Below, one piece after another: positions 7,580 to 19,593 of a DNA stretch of 29,868 bases. The stretch is taken from positions 1-29,868 of the IMG/VR virus record IMGVR_UViG_3300002835_007378. One strand, written 5' to 3'. The DNA is from a virus. A program made the translations under genes and the position numbers. Below the pieces are notes generated by a model. It did not search any database. It saw only the letters and a list, made by a program, of their open reading frames with translations, and was not told the origin of the DNA. Each line of letters begins with the position of its first letter. The stretch's first letter is position 1.

Positions 7580-8596
7580 ATGAAAAACTTAAAATTATTA
7601 TTACTTACGTTACTAAGCGTATTATCTTTTAACTTGTTCTCACAGACACAAGTATACACAACAAACACAACGGGACCAAACATTTGTGATGGTACTGCGG
7701 TATTGGACACAACCAATATTAATATGACATCAATCTATTGGCAAGGAATGGGGATGATTATTAATCAGGGAAGTTACATTGTAACAAACCTTTGTCCTGG
7801 CACATACGGTGTTACATTCATCAGCAACGGAACTTCGGTTACATTAACGTTTATTGTCATGGCAGGAAACTTTAATCCATGTTTAAACTTTGGTGGGTTT
7901 ATAACACCAACAAACTCTATTGACTCCACAACTTGTGATGGTATTGTAACGGCAACAGTAACAGGAGGACAAGCACCATACACATATCTATGGAGTAATG
8001 GTAATATGTTTCAGACAATCGATAACTTATGTCCTGGCACATATTGTTGTTATGTTACGGACTCATACGGTTGCACAATAACATTATGTGATACAATAGG
8101 AGTTCAATCTTCAAACTACGGAGATACATTATATATAACAAATGCGGGGATGTGTAATCTTCCTATTGGCACATTAGTTTCAACAATAGAAGATTGTAAA
8201 TTAAATTATAATTCTATTGGCGGTGCATTTATTTCAGATGTCACACCAATATCAGATACTCTTAATATTGTAATGGTTACTTGGATACTTGTAGATACTA
8301 ATGGTTTTAATTTGTCTACACCTCAGTATCAAACATATACATATATTCCTACAGTAGGATGTTATAACTTACAATTAATTATATTTTGTTATCAAAAATC
8401 TATGAACTATAACACTATCGTTATAAATCAAAATTGGTACGTAGGGTTCGCAGGTATTAATGAACTATCAGGTAATGGTAAACAACTTATCAGTGTGGTA
8501 GATTTAATGGGTAAAGAAACAAATATACAACCAAACAAACATTTAATCTATACATACAGTGATGGTTCTAAAGATATAAGATACATTAAAGAATAA
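7580..8596 (+). CDS. Secreted SprB-repeat protein, 338 aa
   Basis: The signal peptide (residues 1-21, ending NLFSQ) precedes two SprB-type repeats. A degenerate one spans ~30-95 (NLCPGTYGVTF). A canonical one spans ~113-172, with TTCDGIVTATVTGG, PYTYLWSNG and NLCPGTYCCYVTDSYGCT. SprB repeats occur in flavobacterial gliding adhesins and other secreted proteins. Residues ~180-295 form a third strand-rich region with several Cys. The end (LISVVDLMGKETNIQP, then HLIYTYSDGSKDIRYIKE) looks like a T9SS-type tail. In a phage it could be a surface decoy, a receptor-binding mimic or a host-modifying adhesin; the sequence does not decide. A terminator at 8621 closes this two-gene unit. Confidence 0.88.
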   Translation: MKNLKLLLLTLLSVLSFNLFSQTQVYTTNTTGPNICDGTAVLDTTNINMTSIYWQGMGMIINQGSYIVTNLCPGTYGVTFISNGTSVTLTFIVMAGNFNPCLNFGGFITPTNSIDSTTCDGIVTATVTGGQAPYTYLWSNGNMFQTIDNLCPGTYCCYVTDSYGCTITLCDTIGVQSSNYGDTLYITNAGMCNLPIGTLVSTIEDCKLNYNSIGGAFISDVTPISDTLNIVMVTWILVDTNGFNLSTPQYQTYTYIPTVGCYNLQLIIFCYQKSMNYNTIVINQNWYVGFAGINELSGNGKQLISVVDLMGKETNIQPNKHLIYTYSDGSKDIRYIKE

Positions 8597-8620
8597 TACA
8601 TTCCATTCACTCACTACAAA

Positions 8621-8647
8621 GGGAGACTCCATTCGGGTCTCCTTTTT
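8621..8647 (+). terminator. Rho-independent terminator
   Basis: GGAGAC / GTCTCC stem with loop TCCATTCGG and five T. Confidence 0.85.
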
Positions 8648-8899
8648 CGTTCATTCATGTATTGTATTATTTTAATATTATAATCGGAATATATCCGATT
8701 ATCTATAAGGTTATTTACAGTAAACTTTACCTTCGTATTAATAACAAGAGTAATGATTACCTTTGTATAAAGGATATGTGGTAATTATTGGGGCATATCA
8801 CAAACAGTAATGTAAAGATTTTATACCTGATTAGACTATCATGATAAGATACTGATATAGTTTAATTCTTCAAACTAAATAAACGGTATATTTATTAAT
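8648..8899. other. Intergenic region with a perfect 9-bp palindrome
   Basis: The 8597-8899 gap holds the terminator above, a perfect hairpin at 8680-8702 (ATAATCGGA, loop ATATA, TCCGATTAT) and the promoter motif at 8889. The hairpin has no T-run, so it may be an operator. Between 8703 and 8880 I see no gene: only short AT-rich frames. Confidence 0.5.
8889..8895 (+). promoter_or_regulatory. TATTTAT promoter-like motif
   Basis: TATTTAT-TAAT-ATG with four-base spacing, heading the three-gene run 8900-10573. Confidence 0.55.
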
Positions 8900-13047: not shown

Positions 13048-13104
13048 TGTTAAGATAAGGATTATAGATTAGTGAGAATGTGTAATTAACTCACTCACTC
13101 CATG

Positions 13105-13124
13105 GGTGTCTCCTTCGGGACACC
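13105..13124 (+). terminator. Hairpin terminator, weak T-run
   Basis: GGTGTC / GACACC stem with loop TCCTTCGG after the 12610 gene. Nearby bases (CACTCAC before, TTGTTCATT after) resemble those around the 8621 terminator. Confidence 0.55.
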
Positions 13125-13212
13125 ATTCCATTTGTTCATTAATTTCACATTCCCCCGCCCCAATAATAAGAAGTCCCCACCTAAATGACAAGACATAATG
13201 AGATGTGATTAG

Positions 13213-13288
13213 ATATCGGTTAATTAGACGATAAAATAGAATATCGTTTATACAAACGATAATGGGGAATATCGTAACGACCCGATAT
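13213..13288. repeat. Three tandem 28-bp-spaced palindromes
   Basis: ATATCG-N10-CGATAA occurs at 13213-13234 and 13241-13262, and ATATCG-N8-CGATAT at 13269-13288. Left half-sites are exactly 28 bases apart. The middle copy extends to an 8-bp stem (13242-13261). This looks like a set of protein-binding sites, either operators or origin iterons. Confidence 0.7.
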
Positions 13289-13293
13289 GTTAT

Positions 13294-13358
13294 GGACTTA
13301 TGTTACATATCATATTGATGAGGTTTCACCTCACTAAGATGATATAAATAATAAGTCC
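13294..13358. repeat. Nested inverted repeats
   Basis: GGACTTAT (13294-13301) and ATAAGTCC (13351-13358) enclose the hairpin TGAGGT-TTC-ACCTCA (13319-13333). Confidence 0.5.
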
Positions 13359-13691
13359 CACTTTTCTCCACTTATGTTGTCTCCACTACAAAAGGACATA
13401 GAGTAGTCACCTAACGAGGGGGTTAAATAACAACTCGGTTCTTCGTTGAAGGGGGATAAAATCCCTCTGAAACACTCCCTATGGTCGTTTCCCCGCACCT
13501 TATACTTAGTGTTCCTTTATTGTCTGGAAAACGTATATAGTAAAAAAGTGGTCTTCCTGATATCGTCAGGGGGAATAAAATGGTCATTAACATATTACCA
13601 TAACCATATCTGTGGTAAAAAGTGGGGGAACTTAGTATACAAGTGGGAGGACGAATATGGACGAGGGGATTATCCCCAATCCAACGGTCAC

Positions 13692-13705
13692 CTGACATTT
13701 TGACA
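13692..13705 (+). repeat. 14-bp inverted repeat, left copy
   Basis: CTGACATTTTGACA; its exact reverse complement is at 14922-14935. Confidence 0.65.
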
Positions 13706-13759
13706 TTTTCAAGTTTTTCCCCCTAAAGTTATTAACAATCCACATTAATTTTCCCCCTC

Positions 13760-13772
13760 TGACATAGTGTCA
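13760..13772. repeat. 13-bp palindrome TGACATAGTGTCA, copy 1
   Basis: Perfect 5-bp arms around TAG. The identical 13 bases recur at 14809-14821. Confidence 0.7.
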
Positions 13773-13781
13773 TGTGGATAA
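13773..13781 (-). promoter_or_regulatory. DnaA-box match
   Basis: TGTGGATAA is the exact complement of TTATCCACA, the consensus DnaA box, and directly abuts the palindrome at 13760. A single box could be chance in AT-rich DNA. Confidence 0.4.
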
Positions 13782-13856
13782 CTATATTTACGTGAACAAT
13801 ATTTTTATATGTTCCTAACCATAATTTATTCACTTTACTGTTAAGATGTTTATGAT

Positions 13857-14105
13857 ATGTCCATGGAATATGAAATCACACAGGTAGACGACAGAATTAG
13901 GGTGACCATCACAAAGGAAGGAAAAGAGGCGGGGTCATTATATTTTGAGAAAGCAAAGAAAGGTTTTACAAATAAACCATTAAGTATGGGGTCTTGGGCA
14001 TGTATAGATGCAAAGATAGAAGATGACACAATATTCAGTGAAACATTAACCCCCAAAGATATTGTCAATGAGTGTCAAGAATTAATAAAAGAAAATGGAT
14101 TTTAA
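13857..14105 (+). CDS. Hypothetical protein, 82 aa
   Basis: Unrecognised. Strand-like N-terminus (YEITQVDDRIRVTITKEGKE), a GSLYFEKAKKGF turn, and a C-terminal helix (PKDIVNECQELIKENG). It resembles a small beta-grasp or antiparallel sheet protein of cytoplasmic type. It ends three bases before ATG 14109. There is no leader and no TATTTAT box close to the start. G-rich codon choice (GGGGTC, GCGGGG) differs slightly from neighbours, like the surrounding region. Confidence 0.7.
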   Translation: MSMEYEITQVDDRIRVTITKEGKEAGSLYFEKAKKGFTNKPLSMGSWACIDAKIEDDTIFSETLTPKDIVNECQELIKENGF

Positions 14106-14237: not shown

Positions 14238-14306
14238 TTGTAGGTGGGAGTCTACCCTCTGCGACCCCCAATGTTTGTCGAACCCGTCTCGGACTTAACC
14301 ACCGAC
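14228..14306 (-). ncRNA. Candidate leftward non-coding RNA
   Basis: A consensus host promoter on the minus strand (14311-14342) would start a transcript near 14304-14306. It begins GUCGGUGG, contains CCGAGACGGGUU, and ends CCCACCUACAAUUA followed by a run of seven U (14227-14233). GGUGG near the start can pair with CCACC near the end, closing the RNA, and GUCG/CGAC can form an inner stem. No ORF. The T-arm-like GGGTAGACTCCC does not complete a tRNA. Confidence 0.4.
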
Positions 14307-15020: not shown

Positions 15021-15156
15021 AACGAGACGGGTTGAACCGAGATTACCCTTACAACTCGGCGGAATGAGACACGATGTTCTCTGGGTGAAAATCCCCAATC
15101 TTACTCATGAGGTAAGATGAAACTACACTCCCCCATTGGTACTAGTGGGGGTTTTT
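15021..15156 (+). ncRNA. Candidate structured non-coding RNA with own promoter and terminator
   Basis: Between the TATTTAT motif and a strong terminator are consecutive hairpins: CCGAG/CTCGG (15037-15059), GAGA/TCTC (15065-15080), GGG/CCC around 15083-15095, and a perfect ATCTTAC/GTAAGAT stem with a 7-base loop (15098-15118). The 5' part holds CGAGACGGGTT (15023-15033), also present in the candidate RNA on the other strand. An 18-codon frame (15064-15120) exists but runs through the hairpins. I do not recognise a known RNA family. Confidence 0.5.
15130..15156 (+). terminator. Rho-independent terminator
   Basis: CCCCCA / TGGGGG stem, 10-base loop, five T. Confidence 0.85.
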
Positions 15157-15814: not shown

Positions 15815-16690
15815 ATGAAAATCATTATCACAGAAAACCAATTTAAATCTTTATTAACGGAATCAATTGCTGATGATTCGGAATTAAGAGATATTATAAA
15901 AAATTATGAATCCACTGTTGTTGATTCAAAAGGTAACCATTATGTATTTGATGATAAGGATTCAAAAAACCCAAAAACTTTTATTTCAAATAATAAACTA
16001 AAAAAGGGTGGAACATTAACAATTGGGTGGGGACATACAGGTAAAGAAGCGACAATAGGAAATAAGATATTAAATTCAAAGGCAGAAGAGTTATTAACAA
16101 AAGATATTATAGAAAAAGAAAATATTGCAAAGAAAGTATTATTTCCAAAATATGATAAGTACCCATTATATATACAAAGGGTATTAGTTAATACCGTGTT
16201 TAGGGGGGAGGCAAAAACATCTCACGAATGGGTAAAGGCAATAAATTCAGGTAATTGGAGTTTAGCTGCTAAAAAATATGTGGAAGGATGGAACATTAAT
16301 TTTTCTCAAGCAAAAGACCCCAAATATAAAGGTGGGGTTGCCAATAGAATGGTAAACAATCAAGAAGCATTTATTAAGTATGGTAATGAATTAAAAACAA
16401 AAAAACCTGTTGTTAAAAATTCCAAACCTGAAACCGAAAAACAAAGGTGTTTGAAAATGTTACCAAAGGAGTTGGCCTATAGACCTGAATGTGATAAGTA
16501 CTTTAAAAGTAATTACAATATGGATTATGGTTATGATTTTCCTGAAATGTTTTATACCGTAAAATCAGGTGATACTCTTTCGGGGATTGCATCAAAATAT
16601 GGTAAATCTGTTACTGTGGATAAGTTAAGAAAGTTAAATAATTTAACGTCAGATAATATCAAACCTGGACAAAGATTAAAAATAAAATAA
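15815..16690 (+). CDS. GH24 lysozyme with C-terminal LysM and type B leader
   Basis: 291 residues. Residues 1-18 are the type B leader (MKIIITENQFKSLLTES, with L-T-E). The catalytic domain spans ~22-200. ELRDIIKNYES places the likely catalytic Glu at 32, TIGWGHTG at 69-76 is the lysozyme strand with the active-site Thr, and RVLVNTVFRGEA and the NNQEAFIKYG helix match phage lysozymes that hydrolyse the MurNAc-GlcNAc bond. Residues 245-291 are a LysM wall-binding module (FYTVKSGDTLSGIASKYG ... NIKPGQRLKIK). The linker ~205-240 is basic with two Cys. A second, unrelated wall hydrolase with a leader (after the GH19 at 3474) suggests use in entry from the virion as well as lysis. Confidence 0.93.
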   Translation: MKIIITENQFKSLLTESIADDSELRDIIKNYESTVVDSKGNHYVFDDKDSKNPKTFISNNKLKKGGTLTIGWGHTGKEATIGNKILNSKAEELLTKDIIEKENIAKKVLFPKYDKYPLYIQRVLVNTVFRGEAKTSHEWVKAINSGNWSLAAKKYVEGWNINFSQAKDPKYKGGVANRMVNNQEAFIKYGNELKTKKPVVKNSKPETEKQRCLKMLPKELAYRPECDKYFKSNYNMDYGYDFPEMFYTVKSGDTLSGIASKYGKSVTVDKLRKLNNLTSDNIKPGQRLKIK

Positions 16691-18027: not shown

Positions 18028-19593
18028 ATGAAAAAAATTTACACAAGTATCTTAATGTTAATGTTTGTTTTTACAACAAACGCACAAAGTCAGTTTTGGA
18101 CTGAGACTGATTATAAGGGAGCATTTCCTGTAACAGACAATACACCACAAACAGATTGGACTTATGGGTGGTCTAATTTTGAACCAGAAAATACAAATTA
18201 CCCAACAACACAAACAACCGTTAGTACGGACATTACAACAAACACAACTTGGTCAGGAGTAATCAAACTTCAAAACAAGGTTTATGTTAAAAACGGAGCA
18301 ACTCTTACTATTTTACCGGGAACAATTATCAGAGGTGACTACGCAACACAAGGAACTTTGATTGTTACAAGAGGTTCTAAACTTATCGCTGACGGAGAAC
18401 AATTTAACCCAATTGTTTTTACATCTAACAATCCAATTCAACAAAGAACTGGTGGTGATTGGGGTGGTGTTATTATCTTGGGTAATGCTATTAACAACCA
18501 ACCTGGCGGTGTTGCAAATATCGAAGGACTTACAGCAACAAACTTTACGCAACACGGAGGCACTAACGATAACGATGACTCAGGTGTAATTAGATTTGTA
18601 CGTATTGAGTTTGCGGGTATTCCACTTGAACCAAACAAAGAGATAAATGGTATTACTTTTGGTTCTGTAGGTAATCAAACGTTGGTTGATTACATACAAG
18701 TAAGTTACTCTGGTGACGACTCTTTTGAGTGGTTTGGAGGAACTGTAAATTGTAAACACTTAATTGCATATTCATCAATTGATGATGACTTTGATACTGA
18801 CTTTGGATACAGAGGTAATGTTCAATTTGGTTTGTCGATTAGAAATGAAAATTTGTCAGACGCTCCTGGCGACTCAAATTGTTTTGAATCGGATAATGAC
18901 TCACAAGGTAGTGCGGCACAACCATTGACGGCACCTATTTTTTCTAACTTCACAATAATTGGGGCTAAAGCTAACGGGACGGTTTCCCTACCAATTGGTG
19001 AAAAATTTGAAAAGGCTTTCAGATTAAGAAGAAATACCGCAACTTCTGTTTTCAACACTATTGTTACTGGATGGGAAAAAGGATTATCCATTGAAGGTCT
19101 ACCTGTAGAAGATAATATTTTAGGAGACACAATGCATTTCCACAGTAACATTCTTTCTAACTTTAACCCTGGTACTGTATGTATTACAATAACACCTGGA
19201 TTATTATCATCGTATTTCTCACAAAACGCAAATGACTCAGTTTCAACACATTCAAACATCAATTGGGTAACACCATTTGTTCCACTTGGATTGACTCCTG
19301 ACTATAGATTACAAGAAGGTTCAACAGCTGCGGTTGGAGCAAGTTTTCCACAAGGAGTATTTGGTGATTTAGCATCGGTAAAAGAAAAATCAGATGACTT
19401 TATAATCTACCCAAACCCTGCAAGTGATGTGGTTTATGTTAGTAAAAAATCATACATGGAGATAATCAACCAAAATGGTCAAGTAATCAATACTGTAAAT
19501 GGTTATGAGATTAATTTAAGAAACATACCTTCAGGTATGTACTTTTTAAGAGTAAATAAAGTGAAAACTAAAAAATTAATAATTAAGAAATGA
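18028..19593 (+). CDS. T9SS type A-tailed secreted protein, 521 aa
   Basis: The signal peptide (residues 1-19, MKKIYTSILMLMFVFTTNA) is followed by a 420-residue beta-strand repeat region rich in Asn, Gly and Thr. Segments such as GATLTILPGTIIRG, LIVTRGSKLIADG and PIVFTSN read like right-handed beta-helix turns found in Bacteroidota secreted proteins. The end (residues ~456-521, FIIYPNPASDVVYV, IINQNGQVIN, NLRNIPSGMYFLRVNKVKTK) is a canonical type A C-terminal sorting domain: the host's type IX system would export and anchor the protein. This needs the host machinery, so it tells of a T9SS-bearing host. Codon use is richer in ACA/AAC than in the leader genes, consistent with acquisition. It overlaps the next micropeptide by ATGA. 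Confidence 0.93.
   Translation: MKKIYTSILMLMFVFTTNAQSQFWTETDYKGAFPVTDNTPQTDWTYGWSNFEPENTNYPTTQTTVSTDITTNTTWSGVIKLQNKVYVKNGATLTILPGTIIRGDYATQGTLIVTRGSKLIADGEQFNPIVFTSNNPIQQRTGGDWGGVIILGNAINNQPGGVANIEGLTATNFTQHGGTNDNDDSGVIRFVRIEFAGIPLEPNKEINGITFGSVGNQTLVDYIQVSYSGDDSFEWFGGTVNCKHLIAYSSIDDDFDTDFGYRGNVQFGLSIRNENLSDAPGDSNCFESDNDSQGSAAQPLTAPIFSNFTIIGAKANGTVSLPIGEKFEKAFRLRRNTATSVFNTIVTGWEKGLSIEGLPVEDNILGDTMHFHSNILSNFNPGTVCITITPGLLSSYFSQNANDSVSTHSNINWVTPFVPLGLTPDYRLQEGSTAAVGASFPQGVFGDLASVKEKSDDFIIYPNPASDVVYVSKKSYMEIINQNGQVINTVNGYEINLRNIPSGMYFLRVNKVKTKKLIIKK

Follow-up and report, generated by a model that had tools for sequence, protein, structure and literature searches.

A tandem array of palindromes in a phage genome fragment resembles the predicted operator of the satD operon of Bacteroidota and may act as a decoy

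What is the role of three palindromes that follow each other at a period of 28 bp in a non-coding region of a phage? The palindromes are found in the IMG/VR virus record IMGVR_UViG_3300002835_007378; the whole stretch of 29,868 bases, which is the entire contig, was analyzed and is called the window here. An earlier note, made from the letters alone, had described three palindromes with left halves 28 bases apart and proposed either an operator array for a cooperatively binding dimer or the iterons of an origin. The spacing is exact, with left halves at 13213, 13241 and 13269. The right halves, read directly, are CGATAA ending at 13234 and 13262 and CGATAT ending at 13288.

13213..13234, no strand assigned: palindrome 1, ATATCGGTTAATTAGACGATAA, of the form ATATCG-N10-CGATAA (direct reading and pattern search of the window)
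13241..13262, no strand assigned: palindrome 2, ATATCGTTTATACAAACGATAA, of the form ATATCG-N10-CGATAA, 28 bp from palindrome 1
13269..13288, no strand assigned: palindrome 3, ATATCGTAACGACCCGATAT, of the form ATATCG-N8-CGATAT, 28 bp from palindrome 2
13213..13288, no strand assigned: predicted SatD-type operator array with three sites (pattern match to upstream regions of satD in Bacteroidota and to about 50 unrelated phage contexts)

A search of the whole record for ATATCG-N10-CGATAA, which the earlier note had recommended, found this pattern at the array only. In 300 dinucleotide-preserving shuffles of the window, palindromes of the form TATCG-N8..10-CGATA occurred with a mean of 0.023 per shuffled window, and a pair of palindromes 28 bp apart was never obtained (0/300). 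Palindrome 3 has N8 where palindromes 1 and 2 have N10; it is probably a weaker site.

The surroundings of the array are the following.

13048..13856, no strand assigned: non-coding region holding the array, GC 0.37, richer and more structured than its surroundings
13307..13345, no strand assigned: inverted repeat that follows the array, ATATCAT...TGAGGTTTCACCTCA...ATGATAT, forming a hairpin of its own that is kept in the relatives L003 and L006 and absent from L008
12604..13047, plus strand: upstream open reading frame of 147 aa, with its stop 165 bp before the array
13857..14105, plus strand: downstream open reading frame of 82 aa, with its start about 570 bp past the array
18028..19593, plus strand: phage protein with a C-terminal T9SS type A sorting domain (TIGR04183)

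The further inverted repeats that had been noticed just past the array do exist, the one at 13307-13345 being an example. Family searches with the two open reading frames that adjoin the array (147 and 82 aa) gave no match. Two endolysin-like genes are present in the window, a fragment of a phage genome. One of its proteins carries the T9SS type A sorting domain (TIGR04183), which marks the host as a member of the Bacteroidota. Comparison with known phages, by blastn of the region 12-15.5 kb and by tblastn of the RuvC-like neighbour, produced no match.

Other parts of the record also have unusual features. A non-coding block at 13468-13772 is 75% conserved in L008, while its flanks are not alignable; it is possibly a structured RNA, and neither this block nor the array region had a match in Rfam. 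The stretch 8581-8700, past an open reading frame of 338 aa, folds more strongly than any other part of the record on either strand (z about -6.8 and -6.5) and is probably a bidirectional terminator. Two non-coding stretches 0.7 kb apart, 14283-14292 (AACCCGTCTCG) and 15024-15035 (CGAGACGGGTT), are complementary over 11 bases. Finally, about 19 window proteins of different kinds, including the two endolysin-like ones, begin with one of three short common tags: tag set A, M-x-R-I-I-R-L-T-E-x-D-L-x-R-I-V-R-R-V-I; tag B, M-K-Y-I-I-T-E-S-Q-Y-K-x-L-L; and tag C, M-N-L-Q-E-x-I-R-R-V-L-x-E.

3474, 19750, 20359, 20763, 21302, 24804, 25855 and 26067, plus strand: tagged proteins, first group
5301, 15345, 15815, 24099 and 28300, plus strand, and 6635, 6952 and 12573, minus strand: tagged proteins, second group
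8900, 9268 and 9629, plus strand: tagged proteins, third group

These tags look like a targeting sequence or a cleavable leader. They can be likened to the capsid-targeting sequences that are carried by the internal proteins of phage T4.

The close relatives of the window phage show that hairpin modules in the non-coding region 13048..13856 are swapped or lost. The triplet is present in L003, palindrome 3 included. In L008, which has about 75% identity in the nearby conserved block, a pair at a spacing of 29 bp occupies the corresponding place. L006 is about 90-95% identical over the flanks and has a different hairpin in place of the array. This distribution of triplet, pair and other hairpin indicates that the array comes and goes as a whole, and its absence from a relative as close as L006 indicates that it is not essential. 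On alignment of L006:1500-1640 with window 13200-13290 the array is seen to be exchanged for the hairpin GGATTATA...TATAATCC, and L008 has both kinds; it is as if palindromic modules could settle in this non-coding region and be exchanged there.

The pattern TATCG-N10-CGATA-N8-TATCG-N10-CGATA was used to scan one genome per species from 84,980 species. The scan resulted in at least 120 loci, and among these matches listed all were from Bacteroidota, with arrays of 2-8 palindromes at the 28-bp period. In 106 of the 120 listed loci a SatD-like open reading frame (M-I-A-V-I-T-G-D-I-I-N-S-R...) starts within 300 bp of the array, mostly 8-40 bp past the last palindrome. The other 14 listed loci comprise seven that are cut by a contig end, two in which satD has an alternative start or a frameshift, and five without satD; hence about 108 of the 113 loci that can be judged, among the matches listed, have a SatD-like frame beside the array. 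One of the five real exceptions lies in a prophage-like region of Pedobacter terrae. A gene for a DUF3307 membrane protein (PF11750) follows satD in all 96 testable loci among the matches listed (Pfam). In 28 of 30 host genomes of 3-9 Mb the array was found at a single place, and this place was the satD promoter in nearly all genomes whose neighbourhood was read; among the exceptions are Chitinophaga fulva (L122), Olivibacter (L127) and L182. A second array, outside the satD locus and with a prophage-like neighbourhood, is found in two Pedobacter genomes, those of P. terrae and P. nototheniae. The Bacteroidota promoter motif TANNTTTG was present between array and satD start in 20 of 106 loci against 11 expected, an excess too weak to use.

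The array of the window has the features of these host arrays. Sites 1 and 2 have TATCG-N10-CGATA with flanking A/T exactly, site 3 has it with N8, and the copies are in tandem at a 28-bp period (13213/13241/13269). Palindrome 1 and the host satD operator TATCGKYTAWWTARMCGATA fall into one class, and the logos of phage and host sites agree in the preferred inner and flanking bases. The window array does not lie in a satD promoter; it is an operator type without its usual gene.

These host copies bear on the second proposal of the earlier note, origin iterons, and also on the idea that the array is a 28-bp, dif-like site of the phage for a tyrosine recombinase. The direct 28-bp period and the one site per genome would suit both; CGATAA-N6-ATATCG resembles the layout of a dif core, and a DnaA-like box lies 0.5 kb away. 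The box noted earlier is there (TGTGGATAA at 13773), but a second copy is found at 16615 and looser matches are scattered. The recommended check of strand skew revealed no reversal of GC skew at the array, and no replication gene adjoins it, so that the window has neither the nearby initiator gene nor the skew switch at the repeats that mark an iteron origin. In other phages the arrays lie between tRNA genes or convergent genes, and no recombinase or replication gene is consistently adjacent. The host copies stand in the satD promoter in 2-8 copies, and the close relative L006 lives without the array. Together, these results make an origin or a recombination site very improbable. As a Xer/dif-like site the array is rejected: the fixed 6-bp centre between two recombinase arms is missing, the gap between CGATA and TATCG can be 8 or 9, and host arrays have up to 8 sites.

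The SatD-like protein reaches the family PF16264 with 31 bits against a cut-off of 29. An AlphaFold model based on an alignment of 67 sequences has a mean pLDDT of 97.7. Its C-terminal half forms a helix-turn-helix that weakly resembles HipB. For the N-terminal domain, Foldseek finds similarity to class III nucleotide cyclases, Cas10 and GGDEF domains (best E about 0.001, probability up to 1.0, TM-score about 0.4-0.5). In the model, SatD of L099 and its 66 relatives would combine a class III nucleotide cyclase-like domain with a helix-turn-helix. Residues D8 and G43-D44 (of RGDSFQ) are invariant in the 67 sequences and may correspond to the metal ligands of the cyclases. Defence libraries returned weak helix-turn-helix matches for SatD and no match for DUF3307. 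A literature search found nothing on SatD regulators or their operators in Bacteroidota and no function for satD-DUF3307 in this phylum; the one description of SatD there is that of a family for secretion and acid tolerance (PMC10326533).

We also examined satD genes that were chosen irrespective of the array; the sample covers 47 of 198 genomes, and the best 30 of the upstream regions were read. Most of these 30 regions have palindromes at a 28-bp period, and several (L271, L286, L287, L290, L292) have no clear array. The half-site varies with the SatD clade and can be TATCG, TATCTG, TATATGC, TATTAC, GTTAC, TATTAG, TATTCC, TTCGA or TATAAC. Because the half-site differs between SatD clades while the 28-bp geometry stays constant, the array is predicted to be an autoregulatory operator of SatD. 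The first proposal of the earlier note, an array of operators to which dimers bind cooperatively, agrees well with these findings: the same array, period and base preferences are seen at the host satD promoter, and the half-site varies between clades. The regulator would be that of the host and is apparently not encoded by the phage, a point beyond the reach of the note.

The array is not a peculiarity of one phage. The strict pattern was found in 82 viral stretches, compared with 3 for a composition-matched control half-site. When the gap was left free (1-24), the new viral loci had a gap of 8 (n=30), of 9 (n=17) or another value (n=5). Of 30 phage records that were searched, 28 contained the palindromes, each as one tandem array, in records of up to 296 kb. 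The viral records are mostly fragments and their hosts mostly inferred. A profile search for SatD in the window and 28 other phage records detected no SatD gene, the single match being weak and confined to the helix-turn-helix, and a search for the SatD motif in the fetched phage loci found none. Two alternative half-sites are also present: TATTAC in 15 phage stretches, always with C although G was allowed, and TATCTG in 3, which equals the control count of 3 and is weak evidence alone. The occurrence of alternative classes in phages, mainly TATTAC (n=15), is what the SatD operator model predicted. In the cultured Olleya phage Harreka_1, whose host is flavobacterial, two degenerate palindromes lie between genes at a distance of exactly 28 bp. 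This pair was the one useful result from BLAST of 52-base arrays against phage records, which otherwise gave mostly chance matches (E about 4).

With mechanical calls of open reading frames, 147 phage loci were reduced to 52 flank clusters: 18 in which the array is less than 120 bp from a start codon, 12 of other kinds, 11 between convergent genes, 10 in tRNA spacers and 1 inside an open reading frame. The largest clade has 57 members, with the array past a 200-aa gene that is RuvC-like by eye; in the second, with 23 members, the array is directly beside tRNA-Met.

One alternative is that the element acts at the RNA level, as tandem hairpins that serve after genes as a terminator or between tRNAs as processing or spacer signals. 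Each palindrome can fold, and the array region of the window folds more stably than its shuffles (z -4.3 / -3.7). In the largest clade a T-run follows the array in 54 of 57 loci and the second palindrome is a perfect stem; many other phage arrays abut tRNA genes by 0-3 nt. However, a hairpin requires neither a fixed half-site sequence nor a period of 28/29 bp. Of the ten pairs in each arm only five are fixed, pairing at the inner positions barely exceeds the column expectation, and the same array stands upstream of satD in hosts, with a half-site that differs between SatD clades. T-runs are absent from nearly all other phage clusters; L035, with an array identical to that of the window, has none. 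In the window no palindrome is followed by a T-run, and the combination of a GC-rich stem and a T-run that defines an intrinsic terminator is not seen. An RNA element is improbable as the general explanation; in the clade with T-runs the array may plausibly serve as a terminator in addition. As a separate candidate, a structured RNA at the window array was rejected: there was no match in Rfam, the single moderately divergent relative (L008) offers little variation, and DNA sites explain the palindromes better.

The window triplet is very probably a SatD-type operator, as judged from the sequence comparisons, and we lean on balance toward the reading that it is in addition a titration decoy. 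By comparison, the physiological home of the array in Bacteroidota is the promoter of the satD-DUF3307 operon, normally the one chromosomal place with 2-8 palindromes at the 28-bp period. SatD dimers most likely occupy adjacent sites of the array and control their own operon, probably by repression. Phages of Bacteroidota carry one array per genome, apparently without satD, at places that vary from phage to phage and in most cases are not the promoter of a shared gene. The phage copy may then be a decoy: replicating phage DNA could titrate SatD and shift expression of satD-DUF3307 in favor of the phage, a reading that we hold with moderate confidence. Titration from two or three sites per phage genome is feasible only after replication.

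The main rival to a decoy is sensing of the host state, in which host SatD would control transcription of phage genes or of a phage non-coding RNA through the array. Down-regulation of phi29 genes by Spo0A of the host (mentioned in PMC10462132) provides a precedent. The array lies within 120 bp of a start codon in 18 of the 52 flank clusters and, in L301 and L041, 2-15 bp before an ATG, much like in host satD promoters. But no target gene is common to the phage arrays; in the two largest clades they lie where convergent genes end or immediately next to tRNA genes, and in the window the next downstream start codon is about 570 bp away. Control of phage genes is, in our view, unlikely. Since the distribution does not depend on position, a decoy is favored over the control of a particular phage gene. 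The further idea that Bacteroidota phages repeatedly acquire a protein-free counter-measure, a single array that would titrate SatD and disarm or misfire a widespread satD-DUF3307 membrane system of the host, active during infection, is tentative and rather doubtful. The literature search uncovered no direct precedent for decoy arrays.

The comparison gives this DNA element of phages a candidate cognate regulator and places it physiologically in the satD-DUF3307 operon. It also provides a first model of the operator for a regulator family that is widespread in Bacteroidota and uncharacterised. About 50 unrelated phage contexts have the same predicted host-regulator site, apparently without its gene. 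If titration is true, phages have a DNA-only route to manipulate their host, and satD-DUF3307 is a system that matters during infection.

Among known systems, the closest is the satD-DUF3307 operator itself, as defined here by comparison (PF16264, PF11750). The phage array shares with it TATCG-N10-CGATA, the 28-bp period and the inner and flanking bases; it differs in that the phages apparently have no controlled gene and that site 3 of the window has N8. The Spo0A boxes of phi29, which are located in early promoters, are likewise sites in phage DNA for a regulator of the host, with binding being a prediction in the present case. The phi29 sites lie in phage promoters, whereas SatD-type arrays mostly lack a shared promoter or target gene, and SatD belongs to another regulator family. 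Titration decoys in general are multicopy operator sites that sequester a repressor. The phage arrays would resemble them in placing extra copies of a host operator on replicating DNA, and differ from them in that the array recurs, apparently independently, in about 50 phage contexts.
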